Positions 14,818 to 18,717 of a DNA stretch of 44,439 nucleotides are shown one piece after another. Below the pieces are notes generated by a model, which saw only the letters and a list, made by a program, of their open reading frames with translations, had not been told where the DNA came from and did not search any database. Within the stretch, counting starts at the first letter, position 1. Each line of letters begins with the position of its first letter. Both the position numbers and the translations under genes were made by a program. This DNA comes from Candidatus Dadabacteria bacterium CSP1-2 (GTDB taxonomy: Bacteria > Desulfobacterota_D > UBA1144 > Nemesobacterales > CSP1-2): contig LDXN01000019.1 of the NCBI GenBank assembly GCA_001443445.1, positions 1 through 44,439 on the forward strand. Direction: 5' to 3'.

Positions 14818-15675
14818 ATGTCAACATCGTTAAAGACTGCATTTTTATTAGTAATTTTAACTCTAGTATTTGTTTATGTTGGAAGGCTTATTGGCGGAAC
14901 GACAGGGATGACTATAGCTTTTATTATAGCCCTTGTTATGAACCTCGTATCCTACTGGTTCTCAGATAAGATCGTGCTTGCTATGTATCGCGCAAGGGAG
15001 GTTACGCCTGAAGAGGCTCCCAAGCTTCATAATATGGTAAGAAACGTAGCGATGCAGGCTCAGATCCCAATGCCAAGGGTTTATATAATGCCAACACAGG
15101 CACCAAATGCCTTTGCTACAGGAAGAAACCCTGAAAATGCTGCTGTAGCTGTTACCGAAGGCATTCTTAGACTCCTTGAACCACAGGAGCTTGAGGGTGT
15201 ATTAGCCCATGAAATTAGCCATGTTAAAAATAGGGATATCCTTATTGGTTCGATAGCAGCCACGCTTGCAGGCGCTATAGGGTATTTGGCTCATATGGCC
15301 CAGTTCGCACTTATTTTTGGAGGGTATGGAAGAAGCAGTGACGATGAAGGACGTGGCAGTTTGATAGGTTCTCTTGCTATGATAATATTGGCGCCAATAA
15401 TTGCCTTACTTATTCAGCTTGCCATATCACGTGCGAGAGAGTATAAAGCCGATGAAACCGGCGCTCATATTACTCGAAGACCCCTTGAATTAGCAAGTGC
15501 GCTTAAAAAGATAAGCTACGGAACACAAAGAATTCCACTTGATGCAAACCCTGGCACAGCACATCTCTTTATAATGAATCCCCTTCGTGGCGGTATATCT
15601 GGACTTTTCAGCACACATCCCCCAGTAGAAGAAAGAATAGAAAGACTTGAAAAGCTTTCAAGAGAGATTGTCTAA
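14818..15675 (+). CDS. htpX: HtpX-like membrane zinc protease
   Basis: This 285-residue M48 family protease has two N-terminal membrane helices (about 5-22 and 30-48), the zinc site H131-E-I-S-H135 in [13 protein letters not shown], two further membrane helices (about 143-160 and 180-200) and the third ligand Glu in [13 protein letters not shown]. The C-terminal [14 protein letters not shown] is typical of HtpX. It acts in the inner membrane with FtsH to cut misfolded membrane proteins. AGGAGG precedes the ATG. The length and order are normal for the family. Confidence 0.95.
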
Positions 15676-15717: not shown

Positions 15718-16071
15718 CTAAAAACTCACTACCTTATTCGATTCCCTTATAGATTTGGCTAGATCTACCATACTTACCCACTCTACTCCTTCAACCACCA
15801 TACCCTCCGTGATGCCTCTAGTCTGAGCACACTGAGTGCAAAGCCTTATTCGTGCTCCAAGCCCAAGAAGCTCTTTTATCTTTGCCCCTGTATTTTGGCC
15901 CGAAATTTCATCAGGCGTGGTTTGTCCTTTCAGTGCACAGAAGGCACCGTCGTTTAGGAGAAAGACCTCTGCCTTTGTGTCAGCACCTATAAGGGCACCT
16001 GACAATCTAAAACCATTCCAAGCCCTCATACTGCTCGGAGCCTCATTAATAATAACTACTGCCCTTTCCAT
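15718..16071 (-). CDS. DsrE/DsrF-like family protein
   Basis: This 117-residue protein has the DsrE fold pattern: an early beta strand (AVVIINEAP), a helix with SMRAWNGFRLSGAL, the VFLLNDGAFCALKGQ strand-loop and LGARIRLCTQCAQTRG (about 71-86) with two cysteines, then a C-terminal SMVDLAKSIRESNKVVSF. Some family members relay sulfur through a conserved Cys, others only bind small molecules. The CTQC pair could serve such a role. It stands alone, divergent from the MshEN-nuclease fusion and convergent to htpX. Its ATG has AAGGAGG about 8 bases upstream. Confidence 0.8.
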   Translation of the reverse strand: MERAVVIINEAPSSMRAWNGFRLSGALIGADTKAEVFLLNDGAFCALKGQTTPDEISGQNTGAKIKELLGLGARIRLCTQCAQTRGITEGMVVEGVEWVSMVDLAKSIRESNKVVSF

Positions 16072-16397
16072 GTGAATTCCTCCTTGAAGGTTATTTCAAT
16101 AGCTCAATTCAGCGAAATTACAAAAAAATGTACATAACATGAGATATTTTATTTTTGTAAGTAGTTAATTGCAATAGCTAAGGAGTAATAATTAGGGTAT
16201 TCCATATTTTGATTCTGAAATCTTTGCGATATAGAATCTATGTCTAATATAAAAGATTAAACTAACTATTATGAACAGAAATCCGATCTACTTTAATAGA
16301 AAAGTGGTTTGCGTACTAGTCGAAATGGGTGTACCATAATCTTAACTTATCATGATTACAGCAAAGTAGCCTGGTAGCATAAATTAGAGAAAACATC
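16072..16397. other. divergent intergenic region
   Basis: This AT-rich stretch lies between the dsrE-like gene and the fusion gene and must hold both promoters. A weak plus-strand candidate is TTTGCG (16223-16228) with TAATAT (16245-16250). I see no strong hairpin, repeat or small gene. Confidence 0.4.
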
Positions 16398-17654
16398 TTG
16401 GGAAAGACATTGATAACGATAACAAGAAAACTCCTTGGTGACCTTTTACTCGAGGCTGGTGTAATTACAGAAGACCAACTACGGGAAGCTCTTGAACGTC
16501 AGTGGTCTCAAGGTGGAAGAATATTAAGTATTCTAGTAGAGCTTGGGTTTATTTCAGAGACTAAACTAGAAGAGTTTCTTACAAAGAAACTTAAGCTACC
16601 ATTAGTAAATCCATTGGCCACTGAAATAGAAAAAAATACATTGAAATTAATTCCGGCTGAAACTGCTTACAAACTTAAGGTAATACCTATAAAGTTAGAA
16701 AAAAAATTAGGAAGAAAAATATTAATGCTTGCAACCTCTGACCCTGATATAGAGATTGCTGATGCTGTTTCATTTATCACTGGTCTAGATGTTCAGTTAG
16801 GGTTCGCTTCTGAGCCGGATATAGAAAAAGCATTAAAGCAGTACTATAGTATTGAAAAGGGTATCCCAGATGATAAGAGACCTAATAAGATAAGTGAAAA
16901 AGTAACTTATAATACACCCCTAGAGGAGTGTGGGAAAGCACAGCAGCAACTGATCAATTCGCTAAACACGTTATTTGAGGACACGAAAAAGTCTATCGGA
17001 GATTTCGGGCTGCCATCATGGTGTAATAGCTATATTCTACCTCATGACTTTGAGATTGGAGGCGATATACAAAACCTCGAAAAAGAAATAAATAGTATCA
17101 AAGATAAAATAAGTAAACATAAAGATTTAATTTGGAAGTCAGAACAACGTAAGATTTTATTTGCAGGCTCAGGCAAGGAGATGGAAGATCAAGTCAAGGA
17201 TATACTTGAAGAGATGGGATATACTTTTATGGGGGGATTACAAGACGGGGAGGGTTTAATATTTAAATATAACGACAGAATAGCCGTAGTTGAGACTAAA
17301 GGGGTGTCAGGGGGCGCATTAGAAAAACACGCTATACAGTTAGAAAAAGCTATTATTGAGTACTACTCGTCTCACGAAATTATGCCTAAGGGAGTTTTAG
17401 TTGTTAACGTTTATAAGGACACACCTCTAGATGATCGAAATGTGGCTCCCTTTCCAAGTAATTTGATAAGCTACTCTGAAAAAAGGGATCATTGTCTAAT
17501 AACTGGCTTACAATTATTAGGTTTATACATTGACTGCAAGGATAATCCGGATAAGAAAGCTCAGGTGATCGCCAGTATATTTTCTACTAGTGGGGTCTTT
17601 GGTTATTATCAAGACTGGAGAGGTTTTTTAAAATTAGAGGAAAGTATCAGATAA
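16398..17654 (+). CDS. MshEN (GspE N-terminal) domain fused to a PD-(D/E)XK nuclease domain
   Basis: This 418-residue protein has two domains that are rarely together. Residues about 8-150 match the N-terminal module of type II secretion/pilus ATPases: LLGDLLLEAGVITEDQLREALERQ (12-35), RILSILVELGFISETKLEEFL (41-61), then the KLKLPLVNP and ILMLATSDPDIEIADAVSFITGLDVQ segments. This module binds c-di-GMP in MshE, but some binding residues here are changed (L before LGDLL, S in place of G in RILS). A helical linker (about 170-250) is coiled-coil-like near 226-242. Residues 255-400 hold a restriction-type core with E261/E263, D283 (QDGEGLIF) and E299-T-K301 (AVVETKG). No ATPase domain is present. 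The start is TTG with a weak ribosome site. The gene stands alone. Confidence 0.7.
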   Translation: MGKTLITITRKLLGDLLLEAGVITEDQLREALERQWSQGGRILSILVELGFISETKLEEFLTKKLKLPLVNPLATEIEKNTLKLIPAETAYKLKVIPIKLEKKLGRKILMLATSDPDIEIADAVSFITGLDVQLGFASEPDIEKALKQYYSIEKGIPDDKRPNKISEKVTYNTPLEECGKAQQQLINSLNTLFEDTKKSIGDFGLPSWCNSYILPHDFEIGGDIQNLEKEINSIKDKISKHKDLIWKSEQRKILFAGSGKEMEDQVKDILEEMGYTFMGGLQDGEGLIFKYNDRIAVVETKGVSGGALEKHAIQLEKAIIEYYSSHEIMPKGVLVVNVYKDTPLDDRNVAPFPSNLISYSEKRDHCLITGLQLLGLYIDCKDNPDKKAQVIASIFSTSGVFGYYQDWRGFLKLEESIR

Positions 17655-17722
17655 AAGTGTGCTAGAAATATTAATATTGTATTTAACCTAAACTGGATAG
17701 TCATATTAGTTACTGTTCCCTC

Positions 17723-17750
17723 TTGACATGACTTCTATGTTGATTAATTT
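17723..17750 (+). promoter_or_regulatory. possible promoter of the ABC cluster
   Basis: Consensus TTGACA (17723-17728) with TAATTT (17745-17750) after 16 bases. The -10 is imperfect. The start would be about 28 bases before the ATG at 17785. Confidence 0.4.
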
Positions 17751-17784
17751 TTAACTTAAGTTTTTGTAAAACTATTTTTCGGAT

Positions 17785-18717
17785 ATGATTCAGGTTCAAA
17801 ATCTTACAAAACGCTATGGCAATTTAGTTGCTATAGATAACGTATCCTTCCGAGTTGGTCAGGGAGAGATTCTTGGATTTCTCGGCCCAAACGGTGCGGG
17901 AAAAACCACAACAATGCGGATAATTAGTGGATATATGCCTCCCACTGATGGCACTGTCCGTGTGGGTGATTTTGACGTTTTAGAAGATCCCATAAAAGCA
18001 AAGAGGCAAATAGGTTATCTACCTGAGAATCCCCCTTTATATAATGACATGACTGTTCAGGGTTATCTTGACTTTGTTGCTGATATAAAAAATGTGTCGG
18101 GGAAAAATAAAAAAGCCAAGATTGACCTTGCTATGGAAAGGTGTGGAATTACAGATGTGAGAAAACGTCTAATCGGGAATCTTTCCAAAGGTTATAGACA
18201 ACGCGTTGGAATTGCGCAGGCAATTGTTCATGATCCTGCTGTTCTAGTACTTGACGAACCTACGATTGGACTTGACCCAAAGCAGATTATTGAGATTCGG
18301 TATCTAATAAAAAGCCTGGCAGGGGATCGTACCGTTATCCTGAGTACTCACCTACTTCCAGAGGTTACTATGACATGCACAAGGGTTGTAATTATAAACG
18401 AAGGAAAGATTGTATTAGAAGAATCCCTTGAGACACTTTCACAAAGGGTAAATGGTGCTCAGATGTTATTTCTCAAGCTCAATTACAATGATAAAAGTAA
18501 TGACGTTAACGAAAAAATCCTCTCTCTCCCCACAGTATCAGAGGTGAAGGAAAGCGCTTATGGAGAGTTTATCATTCAGACAAAGGGAGGAGCCGATATT
18601 AGAGAAGAACTGGTTAAGATGGTTGTTAAAAATGGCTGGGGTCTACTAGAACTCCGTCCTCTTACGCATGCACTTGAAGAGGTATTTCTTAGAGTTATAT
18701 CAACTGAAGGAGAGTAG
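17785..18717 (+). CDS. ABC transporter ATPase, GldA-like
   Basis: This 310-residue ATPase has Walker A GPNGAGKTT (about 34-42), Q-loop IGYLPENPPLY, signature LSKGYRQR, Walker B AVLVLDEPTIGLD and an H-loop STHLLP, followed by a C-terminal extension usual in ABC-2 exporters. It starts a four-gene run with the permease, the GldG-like protein and the DUF4340 protein. The cluster is widespread in bacteria that do not glide, so its cargo is unknown. The permease ATG follows its stop without a gap. Confidence 0.92.
   Translation: MIQVQNLTKRYGNLVAIDNVSFRVGQGEILGFLGPNGAGKTTTMRIISGYMPPTDGTVRVGDFDVLEDPIKAKRQIGYLPENPPLYNDMTVQGYLDFVADIKNVSGKNKKAKIDLAMERCGITDVRKRLIGNLSKGYRQRVGIAQAIVHDPAVLVLDEPTIGLDPKQIIEIRYLIKSLAGDRTVILSTHLLPEVTMTCTRVVIINEGKIVLEESLETLSQRVNGAQMLFLKLNYNDKSNDVNEKILSLPTVSEVKESAYGEFIIQTKGGADIREELVKMVVKNGWGLLELRPLTHALEEVFLRVISTEGE

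Follow-up and report, generated by a model that had tools for sequence, protein, structure and literature searches.

The closest described relatives of the protein analyzed here are the PF05157 proteins MshE, PilB, PilF and NfrB, in which two 24-residue motifs with a 5-residue spacer are followed by an MshEN_C subdomain, and the module accompanies an ATPase or a glycosyltransferase. The main text of Wang et al. 2016 (PMC5013675) gives the consensus of each c-di-GMP-binding motif as RLGxx(L/V/I)(L/V/I)xxG(L/V/I)(L/V/I)xxxxLxxxLxxQ and reports that the ligand no longer stabilizes MshE carrying either G40I or G11L. It also lists fusions of MshEN to REC, HD-GYP, CheA, CheX, cyclase and kinase partners, where MshEN serves as a portable N-terminal module, and mentions no fusion to a nuclease. 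In a reconstruction based on PilF, an alanine at position 3 of motif II causes an approximately 10-fold loss of affinity (PMC12002112).

The window, by which we mean the whole stretch of 44,439 nucleotides from Candidatus Dadabacteria bacterium CSP1-2, encodes a 418-residue protein that shares the two motifs, the spacer, the MshEN_C subdomain and the N-terminal placement of the module, but carries neither an ATPase nor a glycosyltransferase. From the N- to the C-terminus it consists of an MshEN/GSPII module (residues 12-154), then a coiled coil, then a PD-(D/E)XK-like domain; nowhere after the MshEN module does an ATPase follow (Table 1). The open reading frame, the pairing of these two domains and the missing ATPase were all part of the original prediction and are supported by the profile matches, the family profile and the structural model described below.

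Table 1 Features of the fusion gene and its neighbours in the window.
Feature	Position	Strand	Basis or remark
HtpX-type membrane protease (putative)	14818..15675	+	Syntenic anchor; assigned from sequence
DsrE-family protein	15718..16071	-	Divergent upstream neighbour; syntenic anchor
Fusion gene, 418 aa	16398..17654	+	TTG start; ORF, sister conservation and dN/dS
MshEN_N	16431..16589	+	24-residue motifs 12-35 and 41-64, 5-residue spacer; NF053729, published consensus and homolog alignment
MshEN_C subdomain	16590..16859	+	Pfam PF05157, residues 65-154
Junction/linker	16860..17066	+	Aligns with nuclease family from approximately residue 183; invariant Trp208 retained
Long helix/coiled coil (predicted), residues 224-250	17067..17147	+	Precedes the nuclease fold family-wide
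PD-(D/E)XK-like domain, residues 252-403, core 260-369	17151..17606	+	Family profile, model, Foldseek
Gly286 codon	17253..17255	+	Column of the relatives' invariant catalytic Asp (15/15)
E299-T300-K301 (ExK)	17292..17300	+	Sister: T299-V300-K301
ABC transporter ATPase	17785..18717	+	First gene of downstream transporter operon; syntenic anchor

Because the gene has an end-to-end counterpart with 85% identity in a sister species of Dadabacteria (L003, a contig from a Candidatus Dadabacteria MAG) and a dN/dS of 0.19 between the two (Nei-Gojobori), we regard 16398-17654 as a genuine coding gene under purifying selection. The two halves give nearly the same value, 0.19 for residues 1-154 and 0.20 for residues 205-418, which is comparable to some of the neighbouring genes, and the reading frame is uninterrupted in the two of them. 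The sister gene starts with GTG at the position of the window's TTG, and in both an AGAG lies approximately 10 nt 5' of the start. The fusion is present in these two species only, and the residue losses reported below are judged from the two sequences.

The N-terminal half passes both curated cut-offs, with 50.9 bits against a cut-off of 23.1 (E=1.6e-13) for Pfam PF05157 on residues 65-154 and 63.5 bits against 38 for NCBIfam NF053729, the model of the c-di-GMP motif, on residues 13-63, and judged by these scores it is a member of the MshEN domain family. Its matches among PDB sequences were all traffic ATPases or their domains, including V. cholerae MshE and Thermus PilF (6f8l). The GSPII-A domain of Thermus thermophilus PilF (9g1w; within 6f8l) is among the closest solved sequences and likewise has a degraded motif II, but it sits in a traffic ATPase and has substitutions of its own (H33, S39, A41 and R62).

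Compared with the consensus, motif I (12-35) has L12 instead of the first Arg, and motif II (41-64) has I42 instead of Leu, L43 instead of Gly at the third position and K64 instead of the terminal Gln. Thus, of the contacts to c-di-GMP, three are gone (R9, G40 and Q61 in MshE numbering, now L12, L43 and K64), and the fusion differs from the PF05157 proteins at position 1 of motif I and positions 3 and 24 of motif II. G14, L28, L32, Q35, R41, L57 and L61 are retained in the window protein, with an additional L32H in motif I of the sister, and the pattern RLGxx...LxxxLxxQ expected of a c-di-GMP-binding MshEN is complete in neither of the two 24-residue motifs. The nearest relatives, which are small MshEN proteins of other bacteria, keep the Gly of motif II in the homolog alignment, and therefore its loss is peculiar to the window protein and its sister. 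Departures from the MshEN consensus do not all abolish binding, and we take the module to be MshEN by descent with a doubtful ability to bind c-di-GMP.

The ligand itself is probably made in the host, because the genome encodes two GGDEF proteins, one of them with an EAL domain. This supply of messenger, together with an MshEN of normal length that keeps R41, Q35 and most of the hydrophobic contacts, speaks for a c-di-GMP-gated DNase or defence effector as originally predicted. We nevertheless consider such a protein improbable, since L43 matches the positions where G40I and G11L abolished ligand stabilization in the main text of the MshE study and where even an alanine is costly in PilF, the changes to L12 and K64 add to this, and the catalytic Asp of the other half is lost. 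With three contacts missing, Gly286 in place of that Asp and housekeeping genes on either side, most of the proposal is left without support.

Two further observations concern MshEN modules elsewhere. The PilB-like ATPase of the same genome (L001, G000:C52, a 570-aa frame) has a strongly degraded MshEN motif in which Arg-Leu-Gly and Gln are gone, despite the two GGDEF proteins. Small MshEN proteins of approximately 150-276 aa without an ATPase occur in several unrelated bacteria (L006, L007, L009 and L013), and in L007 two of them adjoin.

For the C-terminal half, direct scans of Pfam, NCBIfam, PADLOC and PHROG gave no credible match, and tblastn of the window C-terminus against the plasmid and phage collections gave none at all. 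The family behind it was opened by a profile bootstrapped from a relative in one genome of the same order, 27% identical to the C-terminal half. A three-sequence profile led to five further bacterial genomes, and then came plasmid-collection records from Klebsiella, Serratia, Pantoea, Synechocystis and Fusobacterium along with phage and prophage contigs. Scans of the viral sequences with single proteins mostly gave no matches, while the alignment A4 succeeded; two of the relatives had no DNA match in E. coli complete genomes. A profile of 15 relatives, with the window protein excluded, scored 81 bits against residues 183-403 of the window protein, where the invariant Trp, Gln and Asn are also found, and by this profile the C-terminal half is a member of an unnamed family with a coiled coil and a REase-like domain. 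This family has no model of its own in Pfam or PADLOC, and PADLOC gave no credible match for the window protein and 11 relatives.

Members of the family are laid out as a variable N-terminal domain, a Trp, a coiled coil, the motif L..sG.eL..V...L...gF, E-D, E-x-K-G, Gln, an N...R motif and a helical end. The fusion shares with them (for example WP_016946333.1 from a Klebsiella plasmid, WP_028946592.1 from Synechocystis PCC 6714, L049 and L075) the region of residues 183-403 with the Trp, the Lys of ExK, the Gln and the Asn, but these members have another N-terminal domain, an intact E-D...ExK site and in some cases a C-terminal extension. The family-type N-terminal domain is absent from the fusion, where the profile match begins at residue 183, and because the other members carry a different domain there, MshEN has replaced the usual one. 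Both parts are of known kinds. No other MshEN-nuclease fusion was found in several hundred genomes, by searches for the fusion or for its C-terminal part, or in the literature examined, including the main text cited above.

Several independent weak lines agree on a PD-(D/E)XK fold, none of which passes a strict cut-off. The AlphaFold model of the window protein, which is shallow (6 sequences, mean pLDDT 45.8), has a helix at 260-272, strands at 276-280, 286-291 and 294-300, a helix at 308-324, a strand at 332-338, a further helix and a strand at 365-369, and this alpha-beta-beta-beta-alpha-beta succession is the PD-(D/E)XK order. In the core (260-369) the pLDDT is mostly 65-82 in the strands and the first helix and lower in the loops and in 302-324. 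A structure prediction had been proposed as one check on the nuclease fold, and the order of elements in the core of the model agrees with that fold. When Foldseek was run against the PDB, MshE ranked first, R.BspD6I2 third (probability 0.93, E 0.08) and BglII sixth (E 0.19), the E-values being weak, and nothing significant was matched in the Foldseek viral library. Among the relatives, Pfam matches below threshold pointed to NERD, AHJR-like, CoiA_nuc and PDDEXK_9. For the canonical relative L055, AlphaFold modelled the nuclease region poorly, and that model was left out; a profile search of PDB sequences returned only chance matches to coiled coils, which were discarded.

Counted over 15 relatives, a set that omits a match in G344 (L042, too weak) and one in G157 (L041, not resolved to protein), the catalytic Asp, the Gln, the Asn and the upstream Trp are each present in 15/15, the acid of ExK is Glu in 14 and Asp in one, and its Lys is found in 14/15. 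The window protein has G286, E299, K301, Q314, N337 and W208 at these positions, and the sister has the same except that the Glu of ExK is gone (E299T). The HMM and local-pair alignments agree that G286 occupies the column of the catalytic Asp, and the predicted strand 2 starts at 286; the alignments A5 and A3, which put the Asp at N292 or at a gap, were not followed, and neither places it at D283. The original prediction had built its active site from D283 and ETK (299-301). These residues are indeed there, but D283 precedes the catalytic column by three positions, at a place that varies across the family, and it is not homologous to the catalytic Asp. An acid at the start of strand 2 combined with (D/E)xK in strand 3, the signature of an active nuclease, is therefore not what the two species have, given G286 in both and T299 in the sister, and the loss of D/ExK residues among homologs, which had been named as an outcome that would refute the original prediction, is in part seen within the genus itself. 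A separate case is the family member L034 (G201), where E-A-E-G replaces ExKG and which is a candidate inactivated nuclease.

A possible stand-in for the Asp is E285, which directly precedes G286, lies 14 residues from E299 (approximately 12-15 in the family) and is conserved in the sister. On this basis the protein could still be an active nuclease with a metal site of E285 (or D283), E299 and K301, in which GSPII would sense an input other than c-di-GMP, for example a protein partner, and which would be a chromosomally fixed member of a defence-associated family. The presence of E299, K301 and Q314 in the window protein, the fitting spacing of E285 in both species, the purifying selection and the genetic contexts of the family (see below) are in keeping with this reading, which we nonetheless find unlikely: both species have Gly in place of the invariant Asp, the E299T substitution in the sister means that not even the two members of the genus share the activity, and the immediate neighbours include no defence genes.

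Family members turned up in bacteria and phages and on plasmids, frequently adjoining defence genes or lying in prophage cargo sites. A full-length member in L075 (G328:C183, 3590-5386) is embedded in an operon for type I restriction (hsdM-hsdS-X-hsdR), its end touching the start of hsdR. In L077 (G220:C29, 6660-8796) a member has a 100-aa ORF and then a gene for a TIR-domain protein after it on the same strand, and together they possibly make up a defence operon. Members adjoin an endolysin-like gene in L046 and L049, which we take to be P1-like elements judged by their gene content, and other members lie beside a phage repressor (L050) and, on a conjugative plasmid, close to pifC and to genes for P-loop NTPases (L047). 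The member in L051 (5980-7668), with one in-frame stop, is located between the genes for a replication-nicking and a portal protein, that is in the P2-like gpA-gpQ variable locus, described as an anti-phage hotspot by Rousset et al. (PMC9122126). Collectively, these contexts suggest defence cargo. A quite unlikely reading is that a previously unnamed nuclease family, mobile and associated with defence, exchanges the sensor domain at its N-terminus and that the genus of the window took MshEN, with the metal site rebuilt around E285. If this were true, a secretion- or pilus-type signal module, responding to c-di-GMP or to a protein partner, would be linked to nucleic-acid cleavage.

The locus itself looks different. 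No defence genes are found among the immediate neighbours, since htpX, dsrE and the ABC transporter are all housekeeping genes, although in favour of the predicted link to defence, the nuclease-like half does derive from a family whose members occur in the context of defence genes and mobile elements. The gene may not be alone in its transcript as had been supposed: the ABC transporter operon begins on the same strand after a gap of 130 bp, in which no plus-strand terminator is predicted. In three other genera of the family-level lineage (L070, L071 and L072) sucB-sucA separates htpX/dsrE from the ABC transporter, whereas in the genus of the window the fusion gene lies between dsrE and the ABC transporter (16072-17784) in the place of sucB-sucA. 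The gene sucA, for the E1 component of 2-oxoglutarate dehydrogenase, occurs in each of the five other genera and was not found in either genome of the window genus (both drafts, approximately 90% complete), so that this enzymatic step has possibly been lost. Both species hold the fusion at this one chromosomal locus, and the other genera are without it. Because it occupies the sucAB site of the sister genera in both species, the fusion, as judged from synteny, arrived in or moved into this rearranged site ahead of the divergence of the two species and was then retained.

The erosion of both active sites, the absence of the gene from the other genera and a divergence faster than that of the neighbours (85% compared with 92-98% identity between window and sister) are what would be seen in a mobile defence gene that has lost its function and survives as a decaying remnant. 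We hold this to be improbable as well, because the frame is intact in both species, the dN/dS of 0.19-0.20 in both halves is in the range of some neighbours, and the family-invariant but non-catalytic residues W208, Q314 and N337 are retained.

The explanation we prefer, and to which we give about an even chance, is a chimeric pseudo-nuclease that is kept under purifying selection and binds nucleic acid or a protein partner rather than cutting. In this scheme MshEN/GSPII would have replaced the N-terminal domain of a member of the unnamed coiled-coil and PD-(D/E)XK family, after which both active sites would have eroded in the genus, through the c-di-GMP contacts and the catalytic Asp and in the sister also through the Glu of ExK. 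The nucleic acid or protein partner would be held by the coiled coil together with the REase fold, with Gln, Asn, Trp and Lys conserved, and the helical bundle of GSPII may act as a protein-interaction or dimerization module. The sequences themselves show which domains are present, the link to the family, the lost residues and the purifying selection; the loss of catalysis, the loss of the response to c-di-GMP and the binding role are what we infer.

For MshEN proteins in general, the fusion illustrates that calling c-di-GMP "receptors" by profile alone can mislead, as this module scores above the profile cut-off although it lacks ligand contacts. Of greater value is the family that supplied the nuclease-like half. 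It occurs as a single gene in P2-like and P1-like phages, on Enterobacterales plasmids and in an hsdMS-hsdR operon, and it may itself merit more attention than the gene in the window.
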